From positions 1 to 48,997 of the forward strand of contig NZ_JACJPY010000031.1 of the NCBI RefSeq assembly GCF_014696345.1: 48,997 bases of DNA, written 5' to 3'. The notes under the pieces are model-generated. The model was not told the origin of the DNA. It saw nothing but the letters and a program-made list of their open reading frames with translations, and ran no database searches. The DNA comes from Pseudanabaena cinerea FACHB-1277 (GTDB lineage: Bacteria; Cyanobacteriota; Cyanobacteriia; Pseudanabaenales; Pseudanabaenaceae). Positions 31,326 to 48,711 of this stretch are shown here, in pieces (within the stretch, counting starts at the first letter, position 1; each line of letters begins with the position of its first letter). The translations under genes were made by a program, and so were the position numbers.

Positions 31326-32483
31326 TCAACTCCATCGCCAGCTATGCACTGCTGCAATCAAGATATTTGCTGCCCTCTCAATTTCGGCATCGGTTGTGAA
31401 TTTGCCGATGCTAATTCGTAAGGCTCCTTCAATAAGATGTGTGGGTAGGTTAATGGCTTGCAAAACATGAGAAGCAGCCTCAACACCTGATGAACAAGCT
31501 GAACCTGTGGCGATCGCCAGTTGATCGCGAATTCTAGCAATGATTGCCTTATTGGGAATATTGGGGATAGAAATATGGAGGTTTCCCGCCAGTCGGTTCA
31601 GGCGATCGCCATTGATCGTTAGATCAGGAATACTCTCTAGTAACAAAGATTGCAGGCGATCGCGCTTGATGGCAATTTCATGTTCATCTTGTTCCATTTC
31701 TAGCTGACGCAAGCGGCAAGCCTCTCCCAGTCCCGCAATTCCCGCAACATTGAGCGTTCCTGCCCTGATTCCCTTTTGCTGTCCACCTCCATAAATTAAT
31801 GGTTCTAGCCGATAGCCTTTACGCAAAATTAAGGCTCCAATGCCTTTAGGGGCATACATTTTATGTCCTGATAGTGCCAAATAGCTAATGCCCCAATCGC
31901 GAAAGTTAATGGGGATTTTGCCAACGGCTTGGGTGGCATCGCAAAGAAAGGGGATGTTATATTTTTGGGCGATCGTCCCGATTTCTTGAACAGGGTAAAT
32001 AGTGCCGATCTCATTATTGGCTGCCATCACACAAATTAAATCTATGCCTTGAGAGCAATTTGTTTCTAAATGTTCGAGGTCTAGTTTGCCTTGGCGATCG
32101 ATTTTTAAAAGGAGCATCTCGGCAATTCCCTTTTTTACTAGGGCATCACAAGTATCAAGAACAGCTTTGTGTTCTATGGGTAATACTGCAATTTTTAGCT
32201 TATGGGTGCTAGGTGATTTTGGGGTTAATCCTTGCAGCACTAGATTAATGCTTTCGGTCGCACCCGATGTAAAAATTACTTCTCTAGGTACGGCTCCAAT
32301 TAAATCAGCGACTTGTTTGGCGGCTTGTTTGACTGCGCGATCGGCTTTGTCTCCATAGGCATGGTCAATGCTGCTGGCATTGCCAAATTCTGTCAGCATA
32401 TATTCCATGACTACGGAAGCGACACGCGGATCAACGGGGGTGGTGGCATGGTAATCAAGGTAAATGGGGCGATCGCTTTGCAT
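31326..32483 (-). CDS. Cysteine desulfurase (IscS/NifS/DndA family)
   Basis: The 385-residue PLP enzyme removes sulfur from cysteine and carries it as a persulfide on an active-site cysteine. The start IYLDYHATTPVDPRV matches the class. TSGATESINLVLQG, HKAVLDTCDALVKKG and the PLP-lysine segment ALSGHKMYAPKGIGAL are followed by GIRAGTLNVAGIAGLGEAC. The catalytic loop ATGSACSSGVEAASHVL carries the persulfide cysteine. It could serve iron-sulfur biogenesis, thiolation of tRNA, or, as DndA does, DNA phosphorothioation. I cannot assign it. It is the last minus-strand gene beyond the defence operon, and its 5' end is duplicated at 33269-33317, flanking the HEPN/MNT cassette. Confidence 0.9.
   Translation of the reverse strand: MQSDRPIYLDYHATTPVDPRVASVVMEYMLTEFGNASSIDHAYGDKADRAVKQAAKQVADLIGAVPREVIFTSGATESINLVLQGLTPKSPSTHKLKIAVLPIEHKAVLDTCDALVKKGIAEMLLLKIDRQGKLDLEHLETNCSQGIDLICVMAANNEIGTIYPVQEIGTIAQKYNIPFLCDATQAVGKIPINFRDWGISYLALSGHKMYAPKGIGALILRKGYRLEPLIYGGGQQKGIRAGTLNVAGIAGLGEACRLRQLEMEQDEHEIAIKRDRLQSLLLESIPDLTINGDRLNRLAGNLHISIPNIPNKAIIARIRDQLAIATGSACSSGVEAASHVLQAINLPTHLIEGALRISIGKFTTDAEIERAANILIAAVHSWRWS
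32428..32478. repeat. 5' end of iscS-like gene, original copy of the flanking repeat
   Basis: The 51-base stretch, coding for IYLDYHATTPVDP, has a degenerate same-orientation copy at 33269-33317 on the other side of the HEPN/MNT cassette. Confidence 0.75.
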
Positions 32484-32524: not shown

Positions 32525-32914
32525 CTAGTCTTGTGCTAAAACTTTCGTGATTGAGTCCAACAGATCCCTCACTTGAGGTAGCAAAGGCGAAATCTCTGAC
32601 TCTTCAAAGTACACAAAGTCGCCATAATCTGCTTCTTGACGACTTTCAAATAAATCGTTGTAAAGTCTTGCTTGATCTTTAGAAATAATGCCAGTCCTTA
32701 CATAGTCTTTGTTAAAAATGCCGCGAACGCCTGTATGTTTTGGAGACGATAGATTGTCTTTGAGTAATAAAGCTGATACTGCATAAAAACAACTATAATA
32801 TAAGCGATTAACGCAACTATTCCATCCTCCTGATTCTGCAAGGGTTAGAGCGTCATGGTAGGCTTCTTCGGCTCGTTCTAGACGATATTGAACTGCTTCA
32901 TTGGGAATGTTCAT
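32525..32914 (-). CDS. HEPN-domain protein (toxin of a HEPN/MNT pair)
   Basis: The 129-residue HEPN-fold protein (RLERAEEAYHDALTLAE, NRLYYSCFYAVSALLLKDN, HTGVRGIFNKDYVRTGIIS, LYNDLFESRQEADYGDF) fits the superfamily found with MNT nucleotidyltransferases in toxin-antitoxin modules. HEPN partners often are ribonucleases or targets of MNT nucleotidylation. The family's usual R-x4-6-H catalytic motif is not obvious; the candidate is the RQEADYGDF region, which lacks the final His, so nuclease activity is doubtful. It starts 5 bases downstream of the MNT gene, its natural partner. The pair lies between the BrxL-like gene and the iscS-like gene. Confidence 0.8.
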   Translation of the reverse strand: MNIPNEAVQYRLERAEEAYHDALTLAESGGWNSCVNRLYYSCFYAVSALLLKDNLSSPKHTGVRGIFNKDYVRTGIISKDQARLYNDLFESRQEADYGDFVYFEESEISPLLPQVRDLLDSITKVLAQD

Positions 32915-32919: not shown

Positions 32920-33246
32920 TTACAAGAGGATTGCTTCTTTTTCTATGGATTTAGAGAATGGTGTTTGTTGAAATCTCGGTGTGTTCCATTCTTGACGGCT
33001 GCGGATGATTGAACAAATTACTTCTCCTGTTTCCCATTCAATTTCGTAGATTTGATGGCGTAGGCGATCGCGTCGAGACGGATTGACGACTCCATCAACT
33101 AATATTAAGATATCCCAGTCTGAGTCTGGTCTTGCGTTAGCACGGGCGCGGGAACCATAGAGAAATATTTGGGCGGTTGGCTCGATCTCATACACAATCT
33201 CTTTGATGCGTTGAAGTAATACTTTGCTTTCCATAGTTGTAATCAT
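32920..33246 (-). CDS. MNT nucleotidyltransferase (antitoxin of a HEPN/MNT pair)
   Basis: The core has the minimal nucleotidyltransferase signature IFLYGSRARANARPDSDWDI, that is GSxRxR-x(8)-SDxD, with metal-binding Asp residues. MNTs in such pairs add AMP to the HEPN partner and act as antitoxin. The open frame extends to 33336, but those extra codons read IYLDYHVTIPLDP, a fossil of the iscS start rather than MNT sequence. I choose the ATG at 33246 (MITTMESKVLLQRIKE), with 33234 as an alternative. It is followed 5 bases later by HEPN. The repeat-derived frame shows that the fragment upstream is a duplicated piece. Confidence 0.8.
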   Translation of the reverse strand: MITTMESKVLLQRIKEIVYEIEPTAQIFLYGSRARANARPDSDWDILILVDGVVNPSRRDRLRHQIYEIEWETGEVICSIIRSRQEWNTPRFQQTPFSKSIEKEAILL

Positions 33247-33268
33247 TGTATCAAGGCTTGAAAGTGAC

Positions 33269-33317
33269 GGATCTAGGGGTATGGTGACGTGGTAATCAAG
33301 ATAAATGGCGATCGCTT
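33269..33317. repeat. Degenerate copy of the iscS 5' end (flanks HEPN/MNT)
   Basis: Reading the minus strand gives AIYLDYHVTIPLDPS against PIYLDYHATTPVDPR of the cysteine desulfurase. Over the 39 bases after the HIP1 octamer I count 7 mismatches (about 82 % identity). The two copies are about 840 bases apart in the same orientation. Confidence 0.8.
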
Positions 33318-33336
33318 GTGATGCGTTGGGATGCAT

Positions 33337-34785
33337 TCATTTCACTTCAGCATAAATAATTTTGCCATTTTGCTTGAACTCATCGTCAAGGTGATATAGC
33401 TGATCTCGTACAATTTGCCGTAAACGAATGGCAGGTTCTAGGCAATCTCTCTGGTAATCGATTGGGGTTAATTCTAGATGAGGGTAGAGAATTTTTAAGA
33501 ATCCTGACGCCGATCGCTGAATCGCTTGTTGATCGCGAATGGTTGTATTTTTATCAAAACTAGTATGTTGACTGACGTAAGAGGCAAAGCGATTATCGCG
33601 GCGCAAAGCAAGTAAGGCTTCGCCAAAAAAGTCTGTTTTTAAGCCAACTTGAGTGGCGATCGCCTCAGTTTTAAATTTGGGAATTTCCCACCCTGGCAAA
33701 ATCCCTGCAAAGCGATCGAGTAATGCGGTTTCTGAAAAGAATTTAGGTAAATCTTGCAATAAGTTAAATTCATTGCGAGGGCGTAGCTGCTCATCTAGTT
33801 CGATATTGGCAAGCATTACGAGAGAGCAATCACTGGAAATATCCGCAAAGCCTGAACGATTGTAACGACCACTTGCCAAATAATTTTTGAGTGGACCAAT
33901 GATTTCATCGGGATTCTCAAAAGTCAAGCTCTGGACTTCATCTAGCACCACCACATCATGGCGACCGAGTAATCCAATCTCTTTATTTTTGCCATTGATA
34001 AATAAACGGGCAGGAGTGACTTTACCGCCACTAATGAGCGCGACTTTATTACTAATATTCTCAAATATAAAACTCTTGCCTGTGCCTTTGGGCGCTAATT
34101 CCATGATGTGATAATTCGATTCAACCAGTGGCAATAATCTGGCTAACACCCAATTTTTTGCGGTGGTACTATATGCTGAAATTTCGGGATTAAAGCCCAT
34201 AGAGCAGAACATTAAATCGCGCCATTGCTCGGTTGTAAATTGCGATCGCGCTTTGGCATATTCCGTTAGGTTAATTTCCGAACATTGAAAAGGATCAAAA
34301 TCGATTACTTCGACAATGCCATCGGATTGCATGGATAGAGATATTTTGCCCCATAGTCCTTGTCTCAATAGGTTTTCATAGCGTTCTACTAGGTCAACGC
34401 CGATGCGACATTCTTCGATATTTAACGAAGGAATACTGGCCACGGGTTCGGGAATGCGATCGCCTTTATTTTCTAGTCTCACACGTACTTGCATGAGGGC
34501 AATGATTTTTAAGACTTCACCTTGAGTAAGCTTGAAATTGAGGACATGGCGATCGTCTTTGCGTGGAAAAGCTTTGCGAACGAAGTTATTAACTTTCTCA
34601 ATATCGGCTATACCTAATTCTCCATTCCCTTGAATAATTTTATCGATCAGCCATTCCGCGACAAAGCTAGGCACTCCCGCATTTTTAAGTCCACTAGAAT
34701 TAAAGCGCCGCTTATCAATAGAAAGATCGCCAAATACTTCGCGGACAAGTTCATTTGGATAGTTAGAGTGATTATAGGAATTCAT
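33337..34785 (-). CDS. brxL: BrxL-like ATPase (short form)
   Basis: The 482-residue protein fits BrxL of BREX defence systems. It begins with LVREVFGDLSIDKR and has an AAA+-like P-loop APKGTGKSFIFENIS (residues 231-245, Lys237). The Walker B stretch is VVVLDEVQSL near 278-287, and LVMLANIELDEQLRPRNEF follows. The long-form BrxL of type 1 systems carries a C-terminal Lon-like protease domain, which is not seen here (482 residues, no S16 Ser/Lys pair). This matches the shorter BrxL class. It overlaps the pglW/pglZ fusion gene by 14 bases, so the two are translationally coupled. Structural work in other systems suggests BrxL acts as a DNA-translocating motor; here only its fold class is known. 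Confidence 0.85.
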   Translation of the reverse strand: MNSYNHSNYPNELVREVFGDLSIDKRRFNSSGLKNAGVPSFVAEWLIDKIIQGNGELGIADIEKVNNFVRKAFPRKDDRHVLNFKLTQGEVLKIIALMQVRVRLENKGDRIPEPVASIPSLNIEECRIGVDLVERYENLLRQGLWGKISLSMQSDGIVEVIDFDPFQCSEINLTEYAKARSQFTTEQWRDLMFCSMGFNPEISAYSTTAKNWVLARLLPLVESNYHIMELAPKGTGKSFIFENISNKVALISGGKVTPARLFINGKNKEIGLLGRHDVVVLDEVQSLTFENPDEIIGPLKNYLASGRYNRSGFADISSDCSLVMLANIELDEQLRPRNEFNLLQDLPKFFSETALLDRFAGILPGWEIPKFKTEAIATQVGLKTDFFGEALLALRRDNRFASYVSQHTSFDKNTTIRDQQAIQRSASGFLKILYPHLELTPIDYQRDCLEPAIRLRQIVRDQLYHLDDEFKQNGKIIYAEVK

Positions 34786-37700
34786 CTAGACCTCCTGCAA
34801 ACCCACTGGTATAGATTTGGGAGATCGTAATTGCTGTTTCATCAGGTAAATCTATCAGCATCGTTTCACCATCGGCAAACCGATATCGTAAGTTTCCTGA
34901 AAGACTATACTTAATATCAGCATTGCTTTTAGCACTAAGTGGTAATTGGGGAAAAGCAACCTCGATAGTATAAGTTTCTTTGCGGTTACTGAGTTGGCGG
35001 ATAATTTGTTTGCCATATAGTAATTCTGGTAATTCTTTAATCTCAAGAATCACATCGTAAATCGTGGCGGAGTTGCGGCGATTGTCAATTGTGATGGCTA
35101 GTTTTCCTCTTTGATTTGCCTTGCCTGAGCCTTTGATCGTAATTGATACTGGCTTTCGTTCTACAGATTGCGATAGAACGGAAACGCCGATGATTGCTTC
35201 TTCAGGGAAGAGTCCACCATGTAAACCAATGCCAAGTCCTTGGGATGTTTTTTGGAATGTGCTGAAGCACATACTACTTTTAGGAACACTAATATCTTCA
35301 GGGAGTCCAAAAGCTTTAGATTCTAGAATAAAGCAACGTGGATCGGCTGTGCGTCCGATCGCCATTCTGCCTGAGCCATTAACATCACGTGGTGGATTTG
35401 GCATAAGAGGAACTTCACCCATTAATTGACCGTGATCACTAGCGATAACAACTTTTAGGCTTTCTGGTTGTGGGTGTTGCTGAATGCAGTAATGGATTTG
35501 ATCGGCGAGTTTGCGTAATGTGGCAGGACGATCGCTGTGGTACAGGCTATCCCAATCGCGGGACTCATGGTAAAGATGATCGAGTTGTTCGGTATCCCAA
35601 CAGAAAAGAGAATGTTTTGCGTTTCGCAGATCATCGTAAAGTATACTCATGCGCCCATCGGTATAGCGATCGCCTATACCCATTTGTGGAAAAGCTTTTG
35701 CCATTTCGGGCGACCAATCAGAGCGATCGCATGGTAATTGTGTGTAGAGACTCCATTTTGCATATTCTGTCTTTGTTGGCAAGATACTAATGCGTGGTGA
35801 TAACTCCATCTCTAGCTTTAATTTGTTTTGTGATGAGTTACTTTCAGTTAAATATTGTAGTAATTCCTGATGATCTAGCCATCCTAAACCATCAATTACT
35901 ACCCATAACACAGGATTATTTTTAGCTAATTGAGTAACTAAATGGGCGGTACTATAATTTAATGGCGAATCAGCAACGGCTTGAGTTTTGAGATTGGGAT
36001 ATTGCTGATAGAGCCAATTGGCAAAACTTTCACCGAGGCGATCGCTTTCTCTTTCATTTACAGATTTTTTCGCAACTGTTAACTCCCATTTTCGGAATGG
36101 CAAATATTTTTCGACCGCCCAATTAATTGCTTCATGAACAGATCCATTCACACCCAGTGCTGGCGGTAAATCTGGAGGCAATAGACTTAGCAGCTTATGA
36201 CGTTGTGCAACTGAATAGGGTAAACGATGAATGCGATCGCTAACTACTAATTCGGGATATTTAATTGATAATTCATAGGCTAGATTTGTAATGTGTTGAA
36301 TATTTGGTAAATCAAGGGCGATCGTATCTAAAATCTTGCCTTCAGATGCAAGGATTTTCTGCTGCCAATGATTATTTAGTTCTTTAATAAATTGGACAGG
36401 AAAATCTAAAGGAAATTTGCCTAAGTCATCAATTAAGCTACTAGAAGAATCTAGCCCAATCCAACTACGCAAGAGTTCTTGTTTCTTTTCCACAATATAG
36501 GCTGCTGCCAATTTAGGATTATCAGTTGATTGACTAATAACTTGCTGCCAGTATTTCTCAAAGGGCTGAAAATCTTCATGCACATTGATTAGTAGCCATT
36601 GGGCGAGGTGACTAATGCTAGGTGTGTCAGTCCAAATTTGATGATTTTCTGTAATATTGGCTAGAAGTTCTATAACTGGATTAGCTTTTGGTTTAGCGAT
36701 TTGATAATGGCTGAGGCGATCGCATAGGGAATGTAGATAATTATCGAGTGGTGGCGATTGCCATTGCGTTAGATTGATGGCATCACCGAGGAGTGATTGT
36801 AAATAAACGATTGGTTCCTGTTTCTCAGTGATAATTGTATGGGATAAATCATGCAGTTCTAACCATTTGCGGGTAAAGTTACAGAGATAAGCGCCCGAAA
36901 TCCAATAGTGTTGAGATGTTTCTAGTTCTTGCACATGAAAATATTGTAACCATTCTAGTTCTGTCGCGATCGCTTGATAGCCTTGAGGGACTTGATAGGT
37001 AGCAGTGGGATCGAGGGTAACGGTAAATTTTTCAGGTGTTTGATGGGGAAAAACAACAGGGCTGTGATGACGCGAAAAAAAGGCTTTAGCATCAATGATC
37101 TGATTTGTAGGTAGTATTAGTTGAGGTTTGGGCGTTTCTACCCTAATTGCGACTTTTTCTGGTGAGGTAGCAATGGTTGGTGATTTCTCGAAACATTGTT
37201 TTAAAGCTTCTAGAAATTCATTGGCAGATTTAAAGCGATCGCTTCTGTGCGGTGCAATTGCTTTGTTAAGCAAGATAGTCAATTTTTCAGGAACCTTTAC
37301 GGTTAAGCCTAAGGTGTCGGGATGCACGGGCAAAAGGTTTGGTGCAGGAAAGCCTCCATCAAAAGGATAATGCCCTGTTAAACATTCGTAAAAGGTAATG
37401 CCAAGAGCATAGAGATCCCGATCAATTTTTGCTTCTAGTGATGCTGAGTCCTGAAAGTTAAAGTCAGGAGGCAAATAGCGCTGAGTCCCTGCACTCGTGG
37501 GAGATTCGTTCTGTTCTGATGCGGCAATATTAAAATCAATAATCTTGACGCATATCTCTTGATTCTTAATATTATCAATGTTAGTAATCAAGAGATTAGA
37601 AGGTTTGATGTCTTGGTGATAGATGCCGTTATTGTGTAAATGCTCTAGCCCGATCGCTGTTTGTTTGGCGATCGCGATCGCCTGTTCCTGACTAAGCTTT

Positions 37701-39409
37701 GTCTCTGACAGATAACTAGTTAAATCTTTTCCATCTACATAGTCGAAGACAATAAAAGGCGTTTCATCATCAGCTAGTTGCCCTGCATTACGCACCTTGA
37801 CAATATGGCGATGATCGGGCAGGTTACGCAGGATTTTATATTCTTGCTTCGCACGGTCATATAGAGAAATGCGATCGCGTAGCACAAGTTTCAGCACTTC
37901 ATAGACTTCAGCCGTAGTCTCCCATACTTTGTAAGTCACGCAAAAGCTGCCGACCTTTCCTAACTTCTCTTTGACTAAATATTGATTATTGATTAGATAA
38001 TCTTGAGACAAATTAGCTAAATCAATGGTTTCGCTTGTGGTGATTGGTATTAACTCTTGTCTAGCTGCATCAGCACTGGTAAAACGTTCTTGAGGATCTT
38101 TAGCACAAATTTTTTGCAGCCAATTATCAAAACTAATCGGAAGTTCTGGGTTTAGTTGCGATGGCGGCTCTACATAGCAAAGGGAACGGGATTGTAACTC
38201 TTGGACATTCTCAAATAATTTTCTGCCCGTGAAGACATAGTAAAAGATTGCGCCAATGGAAAATAGATCAGAGGCAATGCTTGCCTTTGTTGGATCTTGT
38301 TGACATTCAGGAGGTTGATATTTGTAGTCGATGCTATCGATGATTTCGGCGGCGATCGTGTGGGTGCGATCGCGATTTCGGGCATACTCAAAACCTGTGA
38401 TCACTGCCTGACCTTTGTTATGGGTAATCATAATATTGTCAGGAGACAGATTGCGATGAATAGTACCATGCTCATGGGCATATTCCATTGCGCCTAAAAC
38501 TTGATTGAGAACATCAAATTTTTGATTGGTAGATAGCAGTCGTATAGCTTGGCTTAATGGGCGACCCTCAATCTCGTCAAGCACAAGAATAAAGCGATCT
38601 TTGTCCTCTGTCTCAAAAAAATCTCTGATTTTTTGAATGTTGGGATGGTCATCAATCTGGCTTAGAGATGCAAATGTTGTAAGAATTCTCTTTTTGTCTG
38701 GGTCTGGATTTTCTGGATCAGGATACGGTTCTGCTAGATATATTTTGAGTCTTGCAGTTCGAGTAGATATTAAACTATGTCTAGCGCGATATTCTTCAAA
38801 GCGATCGCCACTACTCAACTTCTGCTCTAGCTGCCAGTCACGATAGATTACTGGTTTAGATTTAGGTTGAGTTTTGCCTCTAATAGCGATTTCAATAGCA
38901 TTGGAATATGTATAAACATCTTGAAGGCGATGGTCAGGAATTAGATGAGAACTTTTAAAAAATTCTACACTTTCTCTTAAATAAGTAATACTATCTTCAT
39001 CTTTGCCATTATGATCGGTGATTGTTGTTTCTAACGAAGTAATTAGAATTGCAGCCTGAACATGAATTTTTCTAAGTGTATGACTTTGAGCTTTGTTAGA
39101 GTCGCTAATTAAAGACGAAACAACTTTAGCGTGTTGACGTAATTTAGCTAGAGGAGATGTAAAGGGTTCTCTGTTCTCTGGATACCACTTATCATAAATA
39201 TCAATATGTCCAACAATATTTTTGATGTCTACGACAAAGACACATTGCGGCGCAATAATTGCTAGATCAATCTCATAGATTTCTTTACCTTGCTTAAGTT
39301 CAAAATTACTAAAAATAGTAAATGTATCAGGTAATTTACTTTTAAGAAATTTGATCGCATTATCTTCAAATTCATTGGCAGCTTTGCCAATTACGATATG
39401 TTTAGCCAT
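34772..39409 (-). CDS. PglW-PglZ fusion: NERD, pseudokinase, kinase and PglZ domain
   Basis: This is a 1545-residue, multi-domain protein. Residues 1-150 form a NERD (nuclease-related) domain with EIDLAII (46-52) and VVDIK (59-63), the D-x-x-D/E-x-K type site. Residues about 192-455 are a kinase fold whose catalytic loop is HRN (318-320) and whose DFG is replaced by GFE (339-341), so it is probably a pseudokinase. Residues 472-740 are a Ser/Thr kinase-like domain with Lys507, HQDIKPSN (598-605) and DFN (625-627), likely active. After a 400-residue linker, residues 1160-1410 give a PglZ alkaline-phosphatase-superfamily domain: VIDG (1171), PTKTEYAK (1211), ASDHG (1323) and HGG (1397). PglW and PglZ are separate BREX/Pgl proteins elsewhere. 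The gene overlaps brxL and the DUF4058 frame. Confidence 0.85.
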   Translation of the reverse strand: MAKHIVIGKAANEFEDNAIKFLKSKLPDTFTIFSNFELKQGKEIYEIDLAIIAPQCVFVVDIKNIVGHIDIYDKWYPENREPFTSPLAKLRQHAKVVSSLISDSNKAQSHTLRKIHVQAAILITSLETTITDHNGKDEDSITYLRESVEFFKSSHLIPDHRLQDVYTYSNAIEIAIRGKTQPKSKPVIYRDWQLEQKLSSGDRFEEYRARHSLISTRTARLKIYLAEPYPDPENPDPDKKRILTTFASLSQIDDHPNIQKIRDFFETEDKDRFILVLDEIEGRPLSQAIRLLSTNQKFDVLNQVLGAMEYAHEHGTIHRNLSPDNIMITHNKGQAVITGFEYARNRDRTHTIAAEIIDSIDYKYQPPECQQDPTKASIASDLFSIGAIFYYVFTGRKLFENVQELQSRSLCYVEPPSQLNPELPISFDNWLQKICAKDPQERFTSADAARQELIPITTSETIDLANLSQDYLINNQYLVKEKLGKVGSFCVTYKVWETTAEVYEVLKLVLRDRISLYDRAKQEYKILRNLPDHRHIVKVRNAGQLADDETPFIVFDYVDGKDLTSYLSETKLSQEQAIAIAKQTAIGLEHLHNNGIYHQDIKPSNLLITNIDNIKNQEICVKIIDFNIAASEQNESPTSAGTQRYLPPDFNFQDSASLEAKIDRDLYALGITFYECLTGHYPFDGGFPAPNLLPVHPDTLGLTVKVPEKLTILLNKAIAPHRSDRFKSANEFLEALKQCFEKSPTIATSPEKVAIRVETPKPQLILPTNQIIDAKAFFSRHHSPVVFPHQTPEKFTVTLDPTATYQVPQGYQAIATELEWLQYFHVQELETSQHYWISGAYLCNFTRKWLELHDLSHTIITEKQEPIVYLQSLLGDAINLTQWQSPPLDNYLHSLCDRLSHYQIAKPKANPVIELLANITENHQIWTDTPSISHLAQWLLINVHEDFQPFEKYWQQVISQSTDNPKLAAAYIVEKKQELLRSWIGLDSSSSLIDDLGKFPLDFPVQFIKELNNHWQQKILASEGKILDTIALDLPNIQHITNLAYELSIKYPELVVSDRIHRLPYSVAQRHKLLSLLPPDLPPALGVNGSVHEAINWAVEKYLPFRKWELTVAKKSVNERESDRLGESFANWLYQQYPNLKTQAVADSPLNYSTAHLVTQLAKNNPVLWVVIDGLGWLDHQELLQYLTESNSSQNKLKLEMELSPRISILPTKTEYAKWSLYTQLPCDRSDWSPEMAKAFPQMGIGDRYTDGRMSILYDDLRNAKHSLFCWDTEQLDHLYHESRDWDSLYHSDRPATLRKLADQIHYCIQQHPQPESLKVVIASDHGQLMGEVPLMPNPPRDVNGSGRMAIGRTADPRCFILESKAFGLPEDISVPKSSMCFSTFQKTSQGLGIGLHGGLFPEEAIIGVSVLSQSVERKPVSITIKGSGKANQRGKLAITIDNRRNSATIYDVILEIKELPELLYGKQIIRQLSNRKETYTIEVAFPQLPLSAKSNADIKYSLSGNLRYRFADGETMLIDLPDETAITISQIYTSGFAGGLDEFL

Positions 39410-40036
39410 GATTAATTAACTCCTTTACCCAAATTAGATCGACTTCATTTAGCGTTGGCTCAGGTTGTTGAGTGTAATCGATCGCCATGTCATATCGCCC
39501 CCTTTGATAAATTTGCTGAAAAATTGTTTGTATATCTAAAATTGGTTCTGCTTCATTGGGGCGTAAAGGGATAGGGACATCGGGAATGCGTCGCGTACTG
39601 AAAAATTGTACAAATCAGCACTAGGGCGATCGTGACTACGGCTAATGAGAATATGGTAGTCAGATACGGGTGTGTGATGATATAAAAATGTTGAATTTAT
39701 GCGTAGAAGATCGATCTCAATCAGGTGAGTTTGAGTTTGCAGAATCCGTCTGTGTTTCCGTAAATAGGCTTCCTTGCCTTCACCTGTTCTTTTGTTTTTA
39801 GGAGAAAGAATTTCTATGGCTGTAATTACTTTTCCTGTTTTAACTTCCCGAATTTCCAGATAACGTTCAGTAATTTCTTCGTGCCAATAGGTGCGCTTTT
39901 CAATTTCTATCCGATAGTCTTGGCTAAGTATATCTGCTAGGGCATCAGCGATCGCCACGATTAGGCGGCTATGGACAGATGACCAAAGTTCAGGATGTTC
40001 TAGGTAAGGATTCATTCCAAGGAAAGGCGATCGCAT
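39402..40036 (-). pseudogene. DUF4058 gene with a frameshift
   Basis: The first frame (40036 down to about 39590) gives MRSPFLGMNPYLEHPELWSS, AIADALADILSQDYRIEIEK, YWHEEITERYLEIREVKTGK and AIEILSPKNKRTGEG, the DUF4058 family start. It then loses register at the GCGACGCATTCCCG region (39581-39592). In another frame the family continues: IPDVPIPLRPNEAEPILDIQ, then YDMAIDYTQQPEPTLNEVDL, ending at a stop at 39402. The deduced full protein would be about 211 residues, typical for the family. A missing base explains this, either a real mutation or a sequencing error. The stop overlaps the start of the fusion gene by 8 bases. DUF4058 is a cyanobacterial family of unknown function. Confidence 0.85.
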
Positions 40037-40045
40037 ACTTTAACC

Positions 40046-40387
40046 TCACGCTACTGCAAAGTCGGTATAGGGACGCATCTGTGGGCTATGGAAGCCAAGA
40101 ACGATATCTTCTTTAGGCACACCCAAAGCCATCAGTTCATTAGCAATGCCCACTTCTGTCCAATCTTCTTCAATCCAAAATTTTTGATCGCGGATGCGGA
40201 CATAGACAGTGATGTCATTAATGCGATCGCTTTTGCGCCAGCCTACAGACATCCAGATATAATGACGGTTATTTTCGTCAATTACTAGAATATTCTCAAG
40301 ATCATGTTTAGAATATTGATTACATAAGTTGACGTGCTTTGATAATATCTCTCTAATTTGGTTAGAATATTGAGCTAATTTATCCAT
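40046..40387 (-). CDS. xisI: XisI-like protein
   Basis: The 113-residue protein starts MDKLAQYSNQIREILSKHV and ends HSPQMRPYTDFAVA, with DDxWxEVGIANELMALGVPK in between (here EDWTEVGIANELMALGVPKE). This is the XisI family, named after a factor controlling excision of the fdxN element in Nostoc but present in many cyanobacteria without that element. XisI pairs with XisH. It overlaps XisH by 13 bases (40375-40387). It is co-oriented with the BREX-like genes and lies 9 bases upstream of the DUF4058 frame. Role in this operon unknown; it may act as an antitoxin-like or regulatory partner of XisH. Confidence 0.85.
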   Translation of the reverse strand: MDKLAQYSNQIREILSKHVNLCNQYSKHDLENILVIDENNRHYIWMSVGWRKSDRINDITVYVRIRDQKFWIEEDWTEVGIANELMALGVPKEDIVLGFHSPQMRPYTDFAVA

Positions 40388-40791
40388 TTTAATACCTCCT
40401 CTTGGTTGATATCGACAATAATCAGTGGCAGTTGGTGCTTATCTAGGATTAGTTTAATGACTTCTTGACTAAAAAAGTTGCTGTATGCTTCATTGCTAAT
40501 TGCAACATATAGTTTTCTTTCTGGTGCTGTTTCCTCCAACAAGTAGCGATATATATCATATTGACCAAGAGCTTCCTTAAGATCCTGAAATTTTGATGCT
40601 CCTAAAAAGCTCTTAACTTCTATCACGATTTTCTGCTCTCCTCTTTCGGCTGCGATGGCTTTTTCTGCACCCAAATCAGCATATAGTCTGGTTTTCAGGT
40701 ACTCAATGATATATGGATCATCTGTTACTCTCCATCCATCAGCGATAAGAGCGTTTTTAACAGATCTATGTATAAAATCCAACTTAGGCAT
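40375..40791 (-). CDS. xisH: XisH-like protein (PD-(D/E)XK-like fold)
   Basis: I take the ATG at 40791 (MPKLDFIHRSVKNALIADGW), which matches family starts, rather than the ATG at 40809. The 138-residue protein has the XisH pattern: KNALIADGWRVTDDP, YADLGAEKAIAAERGEQKIV and IEVKSFLGASKFQDLKEALGQYDIYR. The EVK within IVIEVKSF is the D/E-x-K core expected of restriction-endonuclease-like folds; structural-genomics XisH structures have such a fold, as I recall it. A nuclease effector is possible. The gene lies 10 bases downstream of the BrxC-like stop, with an upstream alternative start overlapping it. Confidence 0.85.
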   Translation of the reverse strand: MPKLDFIHRSVKNALIADGWRVTDDPYIIEYLKTRLYADLGAEKAIAAERGEQKIVIEVKSFLGASKFQDLKEALGQYDIYRYLLEETAPERKLYVAISNEAYSNFFSQEVIKLILDKHQLPLIIVDINQEEVLKWIN

Positions 40792-40801
40792 AGTTTTGTG
40801 G

Positions 40802-43800
40802 TTAATCATCCTCCGTTTTATCTGTTAAGTAATCTTGAAGCTTTGTATAAAGGCTAGTACGGCGGCTTTGGGTTAGTTGACGGAAGCGTGAGATAATCTG
40901 AATCTCAAGATTTGAGTCGATGATGCTATTACATTTTTGTTCTATTTCTTTAATTGTGTTTTCCAGATCCTCAGTTAGCCCCAAAATATGAATAGGTTTT
41001 TCGTTTTGGATGCGTTGAATGAGTTTATGGGCATCTTCAGCTTGTCTTTCAAGATTACTATCTGTATTAATTCCAGACTCAACCACAGCAACTTGATTTA
41101 CCCATTCGCGGGCATCTTTACGAATTTTATCTAGCAAAGCTTGGCGATTTTTTTCAGTCTCGCGGCGGATGGTAATGTAGCGATCGCCCATCCATTCAGG
41201 GATTTGGCTATCCTCATCATGCCATTGTTGTAGTGTTTGCAGATGTTGATCGTAATCTTCTAGACTTTGACGCTTGGCAGTATCTGCAAGTTTGTATAGC
41301 TCTTGTAAGCGACTGAGTTGGCTTTGGATTAGACGATAACGATCTTCATCGATTTCTGAACCGAGATAATAGTTAGATTTGCGTGATAGTTCTGCTTCTA
41401 GGCTTTGACATTGTTTTAAGCCTGTAATTGTGGTTAGGCGTTGCTCTAGATCGTCTAATTCGTGACGATATTGCTCTAGGCGATCGCTTAGATATTGATT
41501 AATTGCTTGGATTTGTGGTTGAAAGCGATCGGGTACATCTTTACTTTTCTCAGCTAACGTTTGCTGTGATTTTTGACATTCATTTATTGAATTAGACTTT
41601 TGCTTAATTTCTTTTTCTAATACTCGAACTATATCAAGGACATCATCAAGTTCATCGATTTTGGTTTGAAACTGTTGATAGTTGGCATAGTGTGATGAAT
41701 CTTTGAAAATATATTCAATCTTGGCGTAATCAATCTTGAACTTATCTAATTCATTAGGATCAGCGATCGCCTCAATTCGATTTTGTAAGCGCGTTAGTTC
41801 TTCACATTGTTTAGCAATTTGATTATCAAATTCTTTGATTTTTTTATTGATTTCCGAATAATCTATTGTGAGATTGTTATTCTGTTTCGATAGCTCAGTA
41901 AGTTCTGCTGAAAATTTATGAATTTTTTGCAAGTTTTCCTCGCAATTGCGAATAGTGCTATTCATGCTGACAGAAAGATCATTAACTTGCTTGATAATTT
42001 TGTTGATTTTTCCTCTTGTTAAAAATTCTTCGTATCTCTTTTCTAAGTTTTTTGCTGCAACTTCTTTCTCGTGATAAATATCATTAAATTCTTCACTAAT
42101 TGGCATGAAAACTTGTAGCTGTTGTAAGACATTTTTTCTTTGATTATATTCATCTAATTTGTTAATCAATAAGTCACACTTAGCAAGCTCTCGCTTTATT
42201 CTTTCAAGTAAAGTTTTAAATCCACTATTCTGTAATTGAGAGAGTTGAGTTTCTTCTTCTCGCGTATCTAAATCATCATGAGTACCAATATGGAGTCGCT
42301 GTAAATGCTTGTAATTATCAAACATTTGTCCTATTGATTTAGCTTCACCAATTGATTTTACTCGCTCTATAGCTTGATTTATTGATTTTTTATTATCATC
42401 TGCTATCACTTGGCTTGACTGATTATTCTCAATTTTTCTTCCAAGACAACTTAATAGTTCTTTTATTTGTTGTTTATCTTCAGCGAATGTATATCGACTT
42501 TCTTGTTTGACTAGTTCTTCGCGCAATTTTATACATTCCAATGGCGATAAATCATTAAGTGATCGGCTGTCCCAATTTTGTAATTGTAGTTTGAGTTGCT
42601 CTTGGCGTTCGCTAATATTTTCGAGTGTTTCTTGATATTTAGCTTCATGTTGCAATGCTGGTAATGCTTCTGCAAATTGAGCGATCGCTTCTTGAGCATC
42701 CATAAGCTCTTGCTGAGTTGCATTTTGGCTCAAGCCTTCATAGCGACTTTGGACTTCACGCAGCTTTTGGGTGATTTGTTGGCGAGTCTCAATTGTTTTT
42801 TGGCGATGGGCGATCGCACTTTTAGTTTTTTCCAGCGCTTGTATATGAATATCTGGTAATGCTGTCACAGATTGTAATAGCTTGATTGCAGCATCGGTAT
42901 TGCCCAAACTTACACCACAATCTTGAATTGTAGTTAGACTGTCGAGATCTATTTGTAGTTGTTTGACTTTTAATTCAATAAGTTCTTGTAAACGTTTTAA
43001 AGCATTGACCTGTGTAGCTTCTTGGCTTGGAGTTCTGACAATATCAGTTAAAGTATAGTCTCTTAAAACTTGAGGATATAAATTAATTAATGCTTCAAAA
43101 GATGTTGCTAAATTTAGTTCTTCAGTCGCTTTAATTGGTTTGTACCAAGCATCAAAATTTTTGACACTTTGTGTTAATCTCCCTAACCATTCTCTAATCG
43201 TATTGGCTTCTGGAGCATTGCCATTAGAGTCTAAAAAATCTTTTGCTTGTTTGATATAGATAGAAGCTTGATCATGGGTGGTGGGTAAGGTAGGTATTGG
43301 AGGTGCAGTAATTCTTTCACGTCGAATCACTTTGGCATCTAGTTTAATAATCCATTCTTTAACAAGATTATCTAATTTTTCTACAATATTAGTAGTAGCC
43401 CAAAAGCTAAGTTCTTTCTCCTCTACACGAGGATCAGCACTTCGTGAACCTGATTTGATTGCAACAGTTCCTTTTAAAGAAACTTCAGATCGATGTAATG
43501 CTAACCAAGCAAAAGCCAAAACTACAAATGTCAAATCATGATATCCATAAGGAATATCAAATAGTTTTTGTCTGATAGTATTTAAAGATACTACAATAAC
43601 CTTTCCCCCTTTCAGATCACACAATTGATCAAGCATTTCCCAAGCAGCTAAGATGTTATTGTTTGTTGGTTTCTTTACATAATATTCGTTACCTTTTTTC
43701 TCAAAAATTCCCCAAACTTTTTCAAACATATCGATTGCACCTTGATATGCAGCTTTGTTATGTTTCGGCAAGTCAACAATTTCAATTTTTCCTTTCCCTA

Positions 43801-46243
43801 GCATCCAAGTTGCCAATGCAGTTACAATCTGCTTGGATGCAGTGTTATCAAGTCTAATATTAGAAGAATTACCAACAGATGGAACGTAAGGATATAGCTC
43901 TTTTAATAAAACGCTAACATTATTACTGATTTTGGAGTTATCTAGACCATGAATCTTACTAGATCGGATAGACTTAACAACCAAATTCTTTTCTAGTTTT
44001 AAGAGATTAGATGCACCATTTCTTACTTGTTCTTCCCATTCAGATAGAACTTTACTGTATGCAGGAGTTCCCATATCAGATCTAAATACTGTTTTGAGAA
44101 TTGCTAGTTTTTGCAAGATACGACCTAAATTTTCTTCATCTTGACCAATATCTTGTTTAGGTATTGCTACTACTAGTCGATCTCTAAGTTGTGAAGCTGA
44201 TAATAAATTATCAATTTCATCTATAAGCCCTTCTAAATCCCCTTTTCTGCTGTCTACTACATAAGCAACAATACCGTGACATCCTTTGTTTTTGGCATTA
44301 ACAATCGCTTGAGGCTTTTGTAATAATTTTTCAAATTCTTCAATTGTAAAAATTTGATTTTGAAAACACCAATCAGAAGCTATTAAACCATTCTCATTAG
44401 CAAATTGAATTGATTTAGTTACATCTGCCACAAGTATAGTAGATATATTTTCTCGACAATATTCTACAAATACTGTTTCAGTTGAAGGTGAATTAGGTCT
44501 TTGTTTCAATTGCTTTTCAAGCTCTTCAATTACTTTCTCTCTAATTCTATTGGGACTCTGACCAGCAAAGAATTGGTAAATTCCATCTGGACGACGATCT
44601 ATAATTTGACGCTCTTCACATAACTTAACTAGATATTTCTTGAGACTATTCTCTGATAGACCTGTCATATCTATTAGTATTTTTTCATGACTTTCGTGAG
44701 GAGATTTTATTACTAAGTCACTACTGACAGTGTAAAGAAAAATTGATTTTACTACATTAATTTCATTCTGATCTGCATCAGACTTAATTGCATCAATGGC
44801 ATTAAGATAAGTTGTATAAATTTCTGACTTAGTTTTAGATGCTCTAAAGTTAGGTGCAAAAGCATCAACTAAAGATATAGCATAGATATAGTTTAGACTT
44901 TCTTTGACAGGTTGGTCAGTTTCCGCAGCATTATTGAGAAATTCACCAACTTCTTTACGCACAAATTCAATCGCTGTGCGGCCCTGTGTAAATTCTAAAT
45001 TGCAAAGCAAATAGCCTGTGAGGGGATGGAGAGGAAAGCAACCTAAACCCAAATGTTTATGGAAGTCTTGGACATTGAGATTCTGTCCATCCTCATACTT
45101 ACGAGCGCGTTTATAGATTCTTTGGCTATCTCCCCAAAAAACATTGTCCCATTTCTTTCTAAATTTTTGCCATGCCTCATTATCTTGCTGCACGATTACA
45201 TCATCAATCACGCGCTCTAGGCTAGAGATAGGGCTATGAGTATGCTCATGGGGAGCAAGACGAGTGGAAACTTGTTGATAACCTGCGCGATTACTTTTGG
45301 AATTTGGATCAACCTGTGTGAAGCTCATCAAGGTAATTTTGGCTCTATGGTTGGTGCAGGCATTAGTCAGATTTTGAGGGGCGGTATTACCTGCTGCGTG
45401 TTTGTCAGTTAGCCAACTATCGAGATAGTAGTTAAGTTCATCAAAGAGAATGAGAATACCTTGAAATCTGGCATTGCTTCCTGTGCAGAGATTCTTAACT
45501 AAATCATCAAGAACTTCTTCTATTTCAATATTCTTAGTAAAATTTGGAGCAAATCCATCGGTGATTGCATCAGCAACTTGAATCACAAGCGGAATTACCT
45601 CATGATGGTTATTTCGCAAAAGCTCACAAATAGCTGCTATATCTCCATTCTGAGCGTTGATTTGACGCAGAAAGCGATCGCCTTTTACTCGATCGCTATC
45701 GTTAAGCTGCTCCAGATACCGCAATGGTCTTAGGCATAGGTGATGAGCAATGGAGCTTGTTACTCCTGCGTTGTTTAGAGCTTTTAAGACTACATCTAAA
45801 AAGTGTTGGCGCAGATCATCACATTTATCGCCACGCAGACAAAGAACAAGATGGTTACTTCTAGATTTGAAGGATTCTAAATTGTCATAAACTCCTTTAT
45901 TCTTTTCGCCTGTCGTAATTTTGATGCTATTAAAGATGCCTTGAACTTCGGGGCTGTCATAGGGTTTGCTGAAGAAATTGGCGATCGCCAAGGCAAAGTG
46001 GGTTTTCCCCTTGCCATAGTCTTGCACTACGCAATGGATATTAGGAGAGTTGGGGCTGTGATAGCTGCGGCGCAATATGTCGAGTAAGCCAACTGTCGAT
46101 TCTTTGGGGCGATCGCTGTTGTAGTTAAAGACAAAGCCTTCACATAGTTTAAGATTTTTGACAGGATCATTCATCATGTCAAGATTGACCACAGGCTCAA
46201 TCGAACCTGCTTCATTGATAGTGATAAATTCATTTAGGAACAT
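40802..46243 (-). CDS. BrxC/PglY-like giant ATPase with coiled coils
   Basis: The 1813-residue protein starts with an ATP-binding domain: VVQDYGKGKTHFALAIANFF (Walker A, residues 75-82, Lys80) and GILILFDELNYYL (Walker B, residues 262-274). These resemble BrxC/PglY ATPases of BREX and Pgl systems. After a helical middle region, long stretches are strongly Glu/Gln/Lys/Leu-rich and predict long coiled coils from about residue 1130 to near the end, reminiscent of SMC/Rad50-like arms. It lies 30 bases downstream of the small BrxF-like gene and 10 bases upstream of XisH. BrxC and PglY family proteins are usually about 1100-1400 residues, so this one is large. HIP1 octamers are visibly sparse, especially in about 42.85-45.65 kb. 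Confidence 0.75.
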   Translation of the reverse strand: MFLNEFITINEAGSIEPVVNLDMMNDPVKNLKLCEGFVFNYNSDRPKESTVGLLDILRRSYHSPNSPNIHCVVQDYGKGKTHFALAIANFFSKPYDSPEVQGIFNSIKITTGEKNKGVYDNLESFKSRSNHLVLCLRGDKCDDLRQHFLDVVLKALNNAGVTSSIAHHLCLRPLRYLEQLNDSDRVKGDRFLRQINAQNGDIAAICELLRNNHHEVIPLVIQVADAITDGFAPNFTKNIEIEEVLDDLVKNLCTGSNARFQGILILFDELNYYLDSWLTDKHAAGNTAPQNLTNACTNHRAKITLMSFTQVDPNSKSNRAGYQQVSTRLAPHEHTHSPISSLERVIDDVIVQQDNEAWQKFRKKWDNVFWGDSQRIYKRARKYEDGQNLNVQDFHKHLGLGCFPLHPLTGYLLCNLEFTQGRTAIEFVRKEVGEFLNNAAETDQPVKESLNYIYAISLVDAFAPNFRASKTKSEIYTTYLNAIDAIKSDADQNEINVVKSIFLYTVSSDLVIKSPHESHEKILIDMTGLSENSLKKYLVKLCEERQIIDRRPDGIYQFFAGQSPNRIREKVIEELEKQLKQRPNSPSTETVFVEYCRENISTILVADVTKSIQFANENGLIASDWCFQNQIFTIEEFEKLLQKPQAIVNAKNKGCHGIVAYVVDSRKGDLEGLIDEIDNLLSASQLRDRLVVAIPKQDIGQDEENLGRILQKLAILKTVFRSDMGTPAYSKVLSEWEEQVRNGASNLLKLEKNLVVKSIRSSKIHGLDNSKISNNVSVLLKELYPYVPSVGNSSNIRLDNTASKQIVTALATWMLGKGKIEIVDLPKHNKAAYQGAIDMFEKVWGIFEKKGNEYYVKKPTNNNILAAWEMLDQLCDLKGGKVIVVSLNTIRQKLFDIPYGYHDLTFVVLAFAWLALHRSEVSLKGTVAIKSGSRSADPRVEEKELSFWATTNIVEKLDNLVKEWIIKLDAKVIRRERITAPPIPTLPTTHDQASIYIKQAKDFLDSNGNAPEANTIREWLGRLTQSVKNFDAWYKPIKATEELNLATSFEALINLYPQVLRDYTLTDIVRTPSQEATQVNALKRLQELIELKVKQLQIDLDSLTTIQDCGVSLGNTDAAIKLLQSVTALPDIHIQALEKTKSAIAHRQKTIETRQQITQKLREVQSRYEGLSQNATQQELMDAQEAIAQFAEALPALQHEAKYQETLENISERQEQLKLQLQNWDSRSLNDLSPLECIKLREELVKQESRYTFAEDKQQIKELLSCLGRKIENNQSSQVIADDNKKSINQAIERVKSIGEAKSIGQMFDNYKHLQRLHIGTHDDLDTREEETQLSQLQNSGFKTLLERIKRELAKCDLLINKLDEYNQRKNVLQQLQVFMPISEEFNDIYHEKEVAAKNLEKRYEEFLTRGKINKIIKQVNDLSVSMNSTIRNCEENLQKIHKFSAELTELSKQNNNLTIDYSEINKKIKEFDNQIAKQCEELTRLQNRIEAIADPNELDKFKIDYAKIEYIFKDSSHYANYQQFQTKIDELDDVLDIVRVLEKEIKQKSNSINECQKSQQTLAEKSKDVPDRFQPQIQAINQYLSDRLEQYRHELDDLEQRLTTITGLKQCQSLEAELSRKSNYYLGSEIDEDRYRLIQSQLSRLQELYKLADTAKRQSLEDYDQHLQTLQQWHDEDSQIPEWMGDRYITIRRETEKNRQALLDKIRKDAREWVNQVAVVESGINTDSNLERQAEDAHKLIQRIQNEKPIHILGLTEDLENTIKEIEQKCNSIIDSNLEIQIISRFRQLTQSRRTSLYTKLQDYLTDKTEDD

Positions 46244-46273: not shown

Positions 46274-46735
46274 TTACAGGTATTTAACGCGAATATCCCA
46301 CAAATTTTCTTTACTTGCCATTTCAGTTGCCCAAGTTTTGGGTAATAAGATCCAGATGGGGCAGGCAAGCTGACGAGTGGCGGCAAGATTTCGCCAAAAT
46401 TGGTTAAGGGGGCTATTGGGACGGGTGTGGAGATAGGTGAGCAAAACATCTAGATCTTCTAGTAAGACGATTGGTTTGGTTGCGTTCTGGCAAATTTGTT
46501 TGATGGCTTCAACTTCTCGACTGATATGCATTTGCAGATTTAAGTAACCGCTTTTGCTGTTGCTAGTATGGCGTTTAATCAGGTCATCGCGATAGCTAAC
46601 GCGATCGCCAGTATAGCGAAAGGCTAATTGACTCAAGGCGGTTTTACTCAGTTTGTCGGTATAGAGCAGATAGGGGCGATCGCGCAGTTCTACTTTATCT
46701 AGTGCTAGTTGATTGATTGCATCAATTATTGACAT
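46274..46735 (-). CDS. Small BrxF-like protein, possible inactive P-loop
   Basis: The 153-residue protein contains KPIVLLEDLDVLLTYLHTRP, which looks like a Walker B strand (hydrophobic then ED), and CPIWILLPKTW near the end. The expected glycine-rich P-loop at the N-terminus is replaced by YLLYTDKLSKTALSQLAF, so ATP binding is doubtful. Size and its place directly before a BrxC-like ATPase gene resemble BrxF of type 3 BREX systems. The similarity is by size, order and partial motif only. It overlaps DUF4007 by 14 bases and ends 30 bases before the ATPase gene. Confidence 0.55.
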   Translation of the reverse strand: MSIIDAINQLALDKVELRDRPYLLYTDKLSKTALSQLAFRYTGDRVSYRDDLIKRHTSNSKSGYLNLQMHISREVEAIKQICQNATKPIVLLEDLDVLLTYLHTRPNSPLNQFWRNLAATRQLACPIWILLPKTWATEMASKENLWDIRVKYL

Positions 46736-48102: not shown

Positions 48103-48711
48103 CTAGGCTCCTTTTAAGATTATTTGTGCGGTTAATTGAAGTTCGGGAAAAGTTGGAGAAATCAGGAGACCGCTATCAACAAACTCAGTTACGTCATACC
48201 AGCCATCGGAATTGATTAAGACTGAGACTTTCGCCTCTAGCGGATCGATGCTCCAATATTCAGGAATATCACGGGCTGCATATTCAGTGCGTTTGGCGCG
48301 GTAGTCAATGTTTTTGGTGGAAGGGCTGATTACTTCGATGACAAGCAATGGTGCAGATAGATTAAAGTCAATCACGGCTTCACGCTCTTGCAAAGCTTGC
48401 CAATCATCTCGCTGCATCACCACCACATCAGGAATCCTGACGGTATCTAGTCCAATGCCACGAGGACAACGTACTCCGACAATGCCTTGCAATGCAATCC
48501 AAGGTAAGCCAGTGCGCTCAATTTCGCCATCGAGATCTCTTACTAAAAACTTAGTAATTCCGCCATGCTTTCCAGTGGCTAACGACATTGCTACAAGTTC
48601 TCCGTCAACTAATTCATATTTTGTATCAGACCCGTCAAAGTAAGTCAGGTAGTCGGCAAACGTGACTCTAGACTTGGTATTTGGGTTGGTTTTGACGATC
48701 GCGATGGTCAT
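48103..48711 (-). CDS. Uma2-family (DUF820) endonuclease-fold protein
   Basis: The 202-residue protein has the complete Uma2 pattern: KYELVDGELVAMSLATGKHG, RIPDVVVMQRDDW, LSAPLLVIEVISPSTKNIDY and RAKRTEYAARDIPEYWSIDP. The Asp of IPDVVV, Glu of VIEVISP and Lys of RAKR mark the presumed PD-(D/E)XK-like active site. Role unknown. It stands between the truncated PIN gene (4 bases upstream) and hicB (3 bases downstream), so these may form one transcript. Its 3' end is the source or sister of the fossil at 47599-47635. Confidence 0.85.
   Translation of the reverse strand: MTIAIVKTNPNTKSRVTFADYLTYFDGSDTKYELVDGELVAMSLATGKHGGITKFLVRDLDGEIERTGLPWIALQGIVGVRCPRGIGLDTVRIPDVVVMQRDDWQALQEREAVIDFNLSAPLLVIEVISPSTKNIDYRAKRTEYAARDIPEYWSIDPLEAKVSVLINSDGWYDVTEFVDSGLLISPTFPELQLTAQIILKGA
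48130..48166. repeat. Uma2 3'-end segment, original copy of the flanking repeat
   Basis: Part of the intact Uma2 gene that encodes ISPTFPELQLT. It is 89 % identical to 47599-47635 in the same orientation, with hicBA between. Confidence 0.8.

Follow-up and report, generated by a model that had tools for sequence, protein, structure and literature searches.

The 48,997-nucleotide contig NZ_JACJPY010000031.1 of the cyanobacterium Pseudanabaena cinerea FACHB-1277, analyzed at its full length and called the window below, encodes a protein in which a NERD nuclease-like domain, a pseudokinase and a Hanks-type kinase are joined in one polypeptide to PglZ, a component of bacteriophage exclusion (BREX) systems. 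Positions 34772–39409 of the minus strand form a single uninterrupted frame of 1545 amino acids (ATG at 39409, stop codon at 34772–34774), and an AAAGGAG stretch upstream of the gene ends 10 bases before the ATG. The original prediction, made from the letters of the window, had claimed that a PglW-like kinase and PglZ are fused in one 1545-residue protein; this was borne out by the single frame, the conservation of the fusion and the shared polypeptide, and the NERD domain, the HRN/GFE pseudokinase, the HQD/DFN kinase and the PglZ motifs all lie within the ranges given there. Domain boundaries were taken from profile hits, alignment and the secondary structure of an AlphaFold2 model:

34772..39409, minus strand: fused NERD-pseudokinase-kinase-PglZ protein, 1545 amino acids (open frame, Pfam, alignment)
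39083..39376, minus strand: NERD nuclease-like domain, residues 12–109 (Pfam, 10-protein alignment)
38045..38836, minus strand: pseudokinase, residues about 192–455, with HRN and GFE/GFD (Pfam, alignment)
37175..37996, minus strand: Hanks-type kinase, residues about 472–745, with K507, E523, HQD and DFN (Pfam, alignment)
37022..37174, minus strand: variable linker, residues about 746–796 (alignment)
34775..37021, minus strand: PglZ half, residues about 797–1545, with N-domain, helical middle, catalytic core and C-terminal beta-rich domain (profiles, model, fold)

Pfam assigned NERD to residues 12–109 (53.2 bits) and Pkinase to two stretches (210.2 bits). Ten fused proteins, that of the window among them, were aligned to evaluate conservation, and the following residues were invariant (10/10): E15, D48, D61 and K63 of NERD (the PD-(D/E)XK residues), H318-R319-N320 of the pseudokinase, where the catalytic aspartate is replaced by N320, K507, E523, H598-Q599-D600, D625-F626-N627 and D663 of the kinase, and D1173, T1212, D1325 and H1397 of PglZ. 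H1326 of PglZ is kept in 9/10 and is R in L081. The motif residues of NERD and the kinase are those generally recognized for these folds, and with its HQD and DFN motifs the second kinase domain is an active-looking Hanks kinase.

Regarding the C-terminal half, Pfam PF08665 gave no match anywhere in the genome at E 0.001. The NCBIfam models PglZ_2 and PglZ_3 matched the fused protein below their cut-offs (24.9 bits for a cut-off of 200 and 21.7 bits for 250, respectively), the NCBIfam PorX model matched far below its own, and PglZ_4 matched 2/7 relatives at E 0.1, with the window protein unmatched. The PADLOC PglZ model PDLC02549 matched the window protein at 1.7e-25, and also 7/7 aligned relatives. 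An AlphaFold2 model of the PglZ half (26 sequences, mean predicted local distance difference test score 84.5) had PorX as its nearest solved fold (Z 25.9 over 322 residues, 3.8 Å) and also matched the BREX PglZ of Acinetobacter (9zn5, Z 22.1 over 369 residues, 4.7 Å) and of Salmonella (9nv3, Z 15.9 over 351 residues, 5.2 Å), both of these entries being hybrid models; the first matches to other-family folds appeared at Z 12.9. The structure prediction that had been suggested as a check thus agreed with the PglZ assignment. Matches to solved structures span at most residues 1018–1416 (model residues 229–627), that is, the middle and catalytic parts with the N-domain outside, and the half falls in the alkaline phosphatase/nucleotide pyrophosphatase-phosphodiesterase (NPP) superfamily. 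In PorX, LPTATQY is the stretch aligned with LPTKTEY, whose first threonine is T1212; judging by how the PorX entries T271V and T272A are titled, we infer that this is the catalytic threonine. The fold matches and the conserved residues identify the C-terminal half as a PglZ fold that retains its active-site residues. PorX itself, however, is a response regulator in secretion signalling with no kinase in its chain.

In order to see where else the architecture occurs, a species-level genome collection was scanned with the PglZ alignment, giving 40 loci, all in records titled cyanobacteria; two peptide patterns in that scan came from cyanobacterial PglZ, which puts distant PglZ out of reach and hardly covers non-cyanobacterial fusions. 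NERD-kinase and PglZ share one frame of 1487–1593 amino acids in 9/40 loci (L071, L074, L081, L086, L087, L088, L090, L092 and L103), including that of Calothrix NIES-4105 (L086), whose assembly is titled nearly complete genome. A decayed kinase lies directly upstream of PglZ in 3/40 loci (L082, L099 and L105), 3/40 were undecidable with the contig start too near PglZ or inside it (L085, L107 and L109), and no kinase remnant was found by tblastn beside standalone PglZ in the loci examined. An assembly error joining two genes, raised in the original prediction as what could undo the fusion, is refuted by its presence in 9/40 loci of other cyanobacteria, and because the fusion recurs in other assemblies such a join is excluded as a general explanation. 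The window contig is a draft one of 179 with its right end in a repeated element, which speaks for an assembly or annotation artefact, but the same fusion stands in 9 other assemblies, one of them titled nearly complete genome, and we consider the chance of an artefact practically negligible.

A second sample consisted of 386 cyanobacterial genomes, partly overlapping the 40-locus collection, and the PglZ half was matched in 8 of them, window included. PglZ without a preceding kinase was found in G382, G245, G207 and G002 (in G002 with one stop), and PglZ fragments without kinase in G352 and G328. In G116, the kinase runs to the end of one contig, and a second contig starts with the kinase C-lobe in frame into the PglZ N-domain, the catalytic core being gone (L023:9–701, where kinase C-lobe and PglZ N-domain are followed by an acidic repeat and a stop). 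In G328, one 215-amino-acid frame (L024:1601–2248) contains the N- and C-terminal domains of PglZ with the catalytic core missing, and an intact BrxL comes next. L020 (G207) and L100, whose contigs are equally long and whose proteins are identical, are one locus, and counts are given with and without the duplicate. Standalone PglZ was located on two named plasmids (Pseudanabaena galeata and Annamia dubia); 0/684 matching plasmid records cover 80% of the fused protein, and no relative of it was found in virus contigs.

The NERD-pseudokinase-kinase module has been described on PglW and DndF (PMC12839542, PMC10853773). No kinase-PglZ fusion appears in any main-text mention of 'kinase' in PMC12839542 or in the passages available of PMC10853773, and literature searches showed none by title or abstract start. 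As to the objection that the architecture might prove common and already described, it is recurrent in cyanobacteria (9/40), and a prior description was not seen in the literature covered. As far as checked the fusion is undescribed, and priority is not established.

The name PglW, which the original prediction had given to the kinase half, is imprecise as judged by profile scores. The kinase half reached 623.7 bits with the NCBIfam MAD6 model, above the equivalog cut-off of 460, and 235 bits over residues 10–751 with the PglW model NF033442, under the cut-off of 990. The MAD6 model matched 10/10 fused proteins at E up to 0.001, with the bit score known for the window protein alone; by score it would name the fused protein MAD6 and hide its PglZ half. 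PADLOC PD-T4-6 kinase models also match the kinase, and PLuB gave a weak NCBIfam match in 5/10 fused proteins, with no paper on PLuB found. MAD6, of the methylation-associated defence system (MADS), shares with the fused proteins this model and a 100/100 group in the kinase tree described below, but its C-terminus is different: in MAD6 of Piscinibacter and of G170 the NERD-kinase part continues into a P-loop domain. The Piscinibacter candidates for MAD2–5, the C-terminal part of MAD6, MAD7 and MAD8 had no match to the window open reading frames at 1e-3; gene names on that plasmid are a reading of its gene order, MAD6 alone being backed by a model. The possibility that MAD6 is an already known kinase-PglZ fusion was rejected, its C-terminus having a P-loop and no PglZ motif set.

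PglW of BREX type 2 is alike in the order NERD-pseudokinase-kinase, but continues into winged helices and iSTAND, with PglZ as a separate protein (PMC12839542). DndF with an N-terminal NERD-kinase carries the same three-domain module on a restriction component associated with phosphorothioation (PT), although its core is a P-loop kinase and that of the fused protein is PglZ (PMC10853773). In G004, L064:6769–15443 contains an SspD-like reductase, a GmrSD_N protein, a 1430-amino-acid NERD-kinase protein whose C-terminal part is P-loop-like, and SspG; in this PT-type locus the kinase module is carried by an SspF-like protein, the SspF label being given by the place before the SspG match. That the same N-terminal module occurs on PglW and DndF (from the literature), MAD6, the SspF-like protein and PglZ speaks for a cassette that moves between modification-linked defence systems and serves control or as an effector.

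The named genes from 31326 to 48711 all lie on the minus strand, as follows:

31326..32483, minus strand: SspA/DndA-like cysteine desulfurase (PADLOC SspA, 453.9 bits)
32525..32914, minus strand: HEPN protein, partner of the next gene (domain scan)
32920..33336, minus strand: minimal nucleotidyltransferase (MNT), a toxin-antitoxin-like pair with HEPN (domain scan)
33337..34785, minus strand: BrxL, with a 14-base overlap with the fused gene (TIGR02688, 458.9 bits, cut-off 329.3)
39536..40809, minus strand: XisH, XisI and a DUF4058 piece, which separate BrxC' from the fused gene (Pfam)
40802..46243, minus strand: BrxC/SspC-like ATPase, here BrxC', 1813 amino acids, Walker-A-like DYGKGKT at residue 75 (homology)
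42032..42406, minus strand: BrxC' residues 1280–1404, a segment mostly absent where the kinase is absent (alignment)
46274..46735, minus strand: 153-amino-acid AAA-like protein without Walker A, candidate iSTAND or BrxB-BrxF (model)
46722..47570, minus strand: DUF4007, SspB/BrxA-like (Pfam, PADLOC)
48103..48711, minus strand: Uma2-family endonuclease-like gene (90% identical to the same-place gene in Pseudanabaena galeata)
48714..48997, minus strand: PIN-like gene (by eye), 3' half, with a 9-base direct repeat at 48888–48896 and the end of a repeated element, probably an insertion sequence

BrxC' of the window had no Pfam or PADLOC match, and the L020 homologue gives a weak SspC match (72.3 bits). 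In the other 9 fused loci the BrxC' and fused genes abut or overlap. Walker A is absent from the AAA-like protein in all aligned rows (0/21), and a promoter and terminator scan did no better than shuffles. The core order is the same in P. galeata, where the Xis, DUF4058, MNT and HEPN genes are missing and a 3'-phosphoadenosine-5'-phosphosulfate (PAPS) reductase stands just before Uma2; with 380 bits to SspD and 44.9 to BrxP this reductase is of the SspD type. Its counterpart in the window genome, at 80% identity, is found close to the right end of another contig, C9, behind SspB (398.8 bits) and SspC (1443.1 bits). C9 ends within the 5' half of a PIN-like gene (C9:11945–12141), identified by eye, whose 3' half begins at the right end of the window; both breakpoints carry identical 9 bases beside similar element ends (16/30 bases alike), and parts of that element end are found again at many contig edges of the assembly, which is in 179 draft contigs; this would account for the break. 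Because of the split PIN-like gene, the shared 9-base repeat and the similar element ends, C9 probably adjoins the window, parted from it by an insertion sequence that splits the PIN-like gene.

With C9 included, the Ssp modification module is complete, SspA lying in the window and SspB, SspC and SspD on C9, and by gene content the locus combines SspA–D with another DUF4007-ATPase set that includes PglZ and BrxL, which makes it a putative phosphorothioation locus. The setting had been taken for Pgl/type 2 BREX and this did not stand, the locus being Ssp/type-4-like: the separate PglZ and PglX methyltransferase that define type 2 are not what is found, PglZ being fused and none of the 20 scanned window proteins being a methyltransferase (no search for PglX was made in the rest of the genome). 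On the other hand, the type 4 set is there, comprising PAPS reductase (on C9, the probable neighbour), DUF4007, BrxL, cysteine desulfurase and PglZ. Type-4 (phosphorothioation) BREX as described in PMC12839542 is alike in combining these with a BrxC-like ATPase, of which BrxC' is the candidate here, and also in that PglZ carries an extra N-terminal part. That part is iSTAND in many members but not all (292/457 taxa, PMC12839542), whereas here the NERD-pseudokinase-kinase module stands in its place; further differences are the AAA-like/iSTAND candidate as a separate gene, the SspD-type reductase and the two DUF4007/ATPase sets. Compared with SspABCD-SspE, the modification genes are shared but the restriction part is based on PglZ and BrxL. 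None of the scanned window or C9 proteins is SspE; in L020 SspE adjoins the PglZ/BrxL module, the order there being DUF4007 (SspB-like)-SspC-SspD-SspE-DUF4007-AAA-like-BrxC'-PglZ-BrxL-SspA. Among 12 genomes with a kinase-bearing module that were searched (including the decayed fusions L082 and L099, and G116 without PglZ core), full-length SspC and a strong SspD were found in 8/12. In G116 SspD is interrupted, in the L090 genome SspC and SspD lie on different contigs, and in Leptolyngbya (L092), whose contig ends near BrxC', SspC/SspD matches in the genome were at chance level.

In the PglZ tree, fused and standalone proteins are interleaved, and a single PglZ clade of fused proteins was rejected by the approximately unbiased test (p 2.65e-67, under the model used). 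The tree needs 4 changes of kinase state, and 0/500 shuffles were as low; a first labelling gave 7 changes, which became 4 with L105 marked as a decayed fusion and L085 and L097 unlabelled. The BrxC' tree likewise needs 4 changes. A second PglZ tree left out 6/43 rows (L091, L094, L096, L097, L101 and L105). In the kinase tree, 72% of bootstrap replicates unite the kinase halves of the fused proteins with that of G116 (weak, support 64/87); this cluster is nested in a 100/100 group of 13 that includes the two MAD6. For the 10 fused proteins, the kinase and PglZ trees share L086+L103, L074+L081, these four together, and L087+L088+L092, but differ in the order within the last group and in the places of the window, L071 and L090; the long branches of the window and L090 make their own places unsure. 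Since the two trees agree in four groups, roughly as expected for one fusion inherited as a unit, one fusion followed by several losses of the kinase half is favoured as the simplest reading of these sequences, which is not proof, and the kinase half has the look of a module that is co-inherited but detachable.

The clearest correlate of kinase presence lies outside PglZ, in BrxC'. In 9 aligned kinase-bearing loci (one of them, L099, a decayed fusion) BrxC' is 1797–1841 amino acids long, and the coiled-coil-like segment 1280–1404 (125 residues) is present in 9/9; L090, L092 and G116 apparently retain it as well, judged by BLAST spans. On the other hand, BrxC' is 1325–1574 amino acids in 17/20 standalone rows (16/19 distinct loci), and all 17 are without 1280–1404, their further deletions varying. 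This association may be regarded as a lead. Fused-biased Ser/Thr columns were also searched for, the shuffled means being 0.08 for PglZ and 0.15 for BrxC'. T1223 in PglZ is Ser/Thr in 8/10 fused proteins versus 23% of 26 standalone rows, a weak bias that is too little to name a phosphosite, and S1517 in BrxC' in 90% of fused versus 28% of standalone; no such column was found in BrxL, DUF4007 or the AAA-like protein.

Our reading of these results, held with roughly even confidence, is that the window carries a defence locus based on phosphorothioation, whose BREX-like restriction module bears a kinase that acts within the complex. SspA–D would mark host DNA with sulphur, DUF4007 and BrxC' would read the PT mark or target DNA, and PglZ would be the DNA-cutting effector (phosphodiesterase/nuclease). 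By analogy with type I BREX, where BrxB is bound by PglZ residues 1–98 and in turn makes the connection to the AAA+ domain of BrxC (PMC13326643), the PglZ N-domain might dock on the small AAA-like protein and thereby on BrxC'. Held at that docking point, the kinase half would phosphorylate one of the proteins of the complex, most likely BrxC', within or close to 1280–1404, or PglZ in cis, and would shift the complex from idling to restricting; NERD might serve as a second nuclease or DNA sensor. The kinase half would be an add-on, shed by several lineages mostly along with the BrxC' segment. In the Pgl system, PglW autophosphorylates, its kinase activity is needed for resistance, and a phosphorylated PglZ was proposed by the authors (PMC4365076). 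A regulator inside the complex is favoured because the PglW kinase is needed for resistance and the kinase here sits at the PglZ N-terminus. The claim in the original prediction that phosphorylation directly controls PglZ remains an inference. A more specific version is rather doubtful as a whole, namely a PT-dependent restriction machine gated by phosphorylation, in which the PglZ-borne kinase and BrxC' 1280–1404 would be a matched switch, mostly co-lost, the kinase could outlive the PglZ core (G116) and the fused protein would be a control unit beyond its nuclease role.

Several observations weigh against our reading. No kinase trace was detected by tblastn in 25/40 PglZ loci, where PglZ does without it, and G116, as assembled beside a repeat, keeps the kinase without the PglZ core. 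L069, L072 and L076 are exceptions with standalone PglZ and yet a long BrxC', L069 being the nearest PglZ to the window in the tree, and once kinship is corrected for, the independent pairs behind the association of BrxC' and kinase number no more than 3 concordant, with 0 discordant (p 0.25). The kinase tree taken alone weakly backs a single origin. The model of the AAA-like protein had a best Z of 7.4, the 50 matches listed were unspecifically AAA or RecA-like (Z 6.7–7.4), and no BrxB or BrxF chain was among them. Finally, in three Calothrix (L086, L099 and L103) genome-wide SspC/SspD matches were at chance level; because these have the module without SspC/SspD above chance, phosphorothioation may not be obligatory for it. 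In Calothrix NIES-4105 (L113, L086), an SNF2-type helicase and an N6 DNA methyltransferase lie beside the kinase-PglZ locus, and the modification partner may have been swapped there.

Instead of a regulator, the NERD-kinase half could serve as a backup or suicide effector that comes into play once restriction by PglZ has failed, attacking host DNA through NERD or host proteins through the kinase, with PglZ merely as carrier. Such a role has been proposed for the same three-domain module in PglW (Rakesh and Krishnan, PMC12839542) and DndF (PMC10853773), PglW was apparently toxic in E. coli (PMC4365076), and the PADLOC PD-T4-6 kinase matches, the detachability of the module and its retention in G116 after loss of the PglZ core all fit this. 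However, the PglW kinase mutant K677A was phage-sensitive and not just weakened (PMC4365076), and the linked absence of the BrxC' segment, though a lead only, suggests a partner within the complex; we regard the suicide effector as a real but minor possibility. If the kinase half were mainly a sensor or scaffold, with NERD binding DNA, the kinase folds binding a nucleotide or phage protein and phosphotransfer incidental, the lack of the catalytic aspartate in one of the two kinase folds (N320, 10/10) would be accounted for, but K507, E523, D600 and D625 are invariant in all 10 fused proteins, and this we find improbable. Still further from likely is a write-erase pair, in which the kinase would add a phosphate that PglZ strips from the same protein: membership of PglZ in the alkaline phosphatase/NPP superfamily and the presence of both activities on one chain agree with it, yet type I BREX PglZ is a metal-dependent nuclease (PMC12205998) and PorX, the nearest solved fold, is a phosphodiesterase (PMC12205998, PMC12839542).

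Returning to a kinase acting within the complex, the natural fusion puts kinase and PglZ on one chain and makes kinase control of defence testable; phosphorylation of PglZ has only been proposed in the Pgl system, and relatives with and without the kinase offer a ready comparison.

Some other genes were observed in passing. The MNT-HEPN pair (32525–33336) and XisH-XisI-DUF4058 (39536–40809) lie inside the defence operon. Between Uma2 and DUF4007 (window 47680–48100) are two short frames that resemble HicB/HicA by eye, the second apparently broken, and an AIPR/AbiU-like gene is located between SspB and SspC on C9 (L029:2775–4532). Unrelated to the finding, positions 7671–12278 of the window encode a 1535-amino-acid protein whose domains are choice-of-anchor I, 5'-nucleotidase C-terminal and DUF4114.

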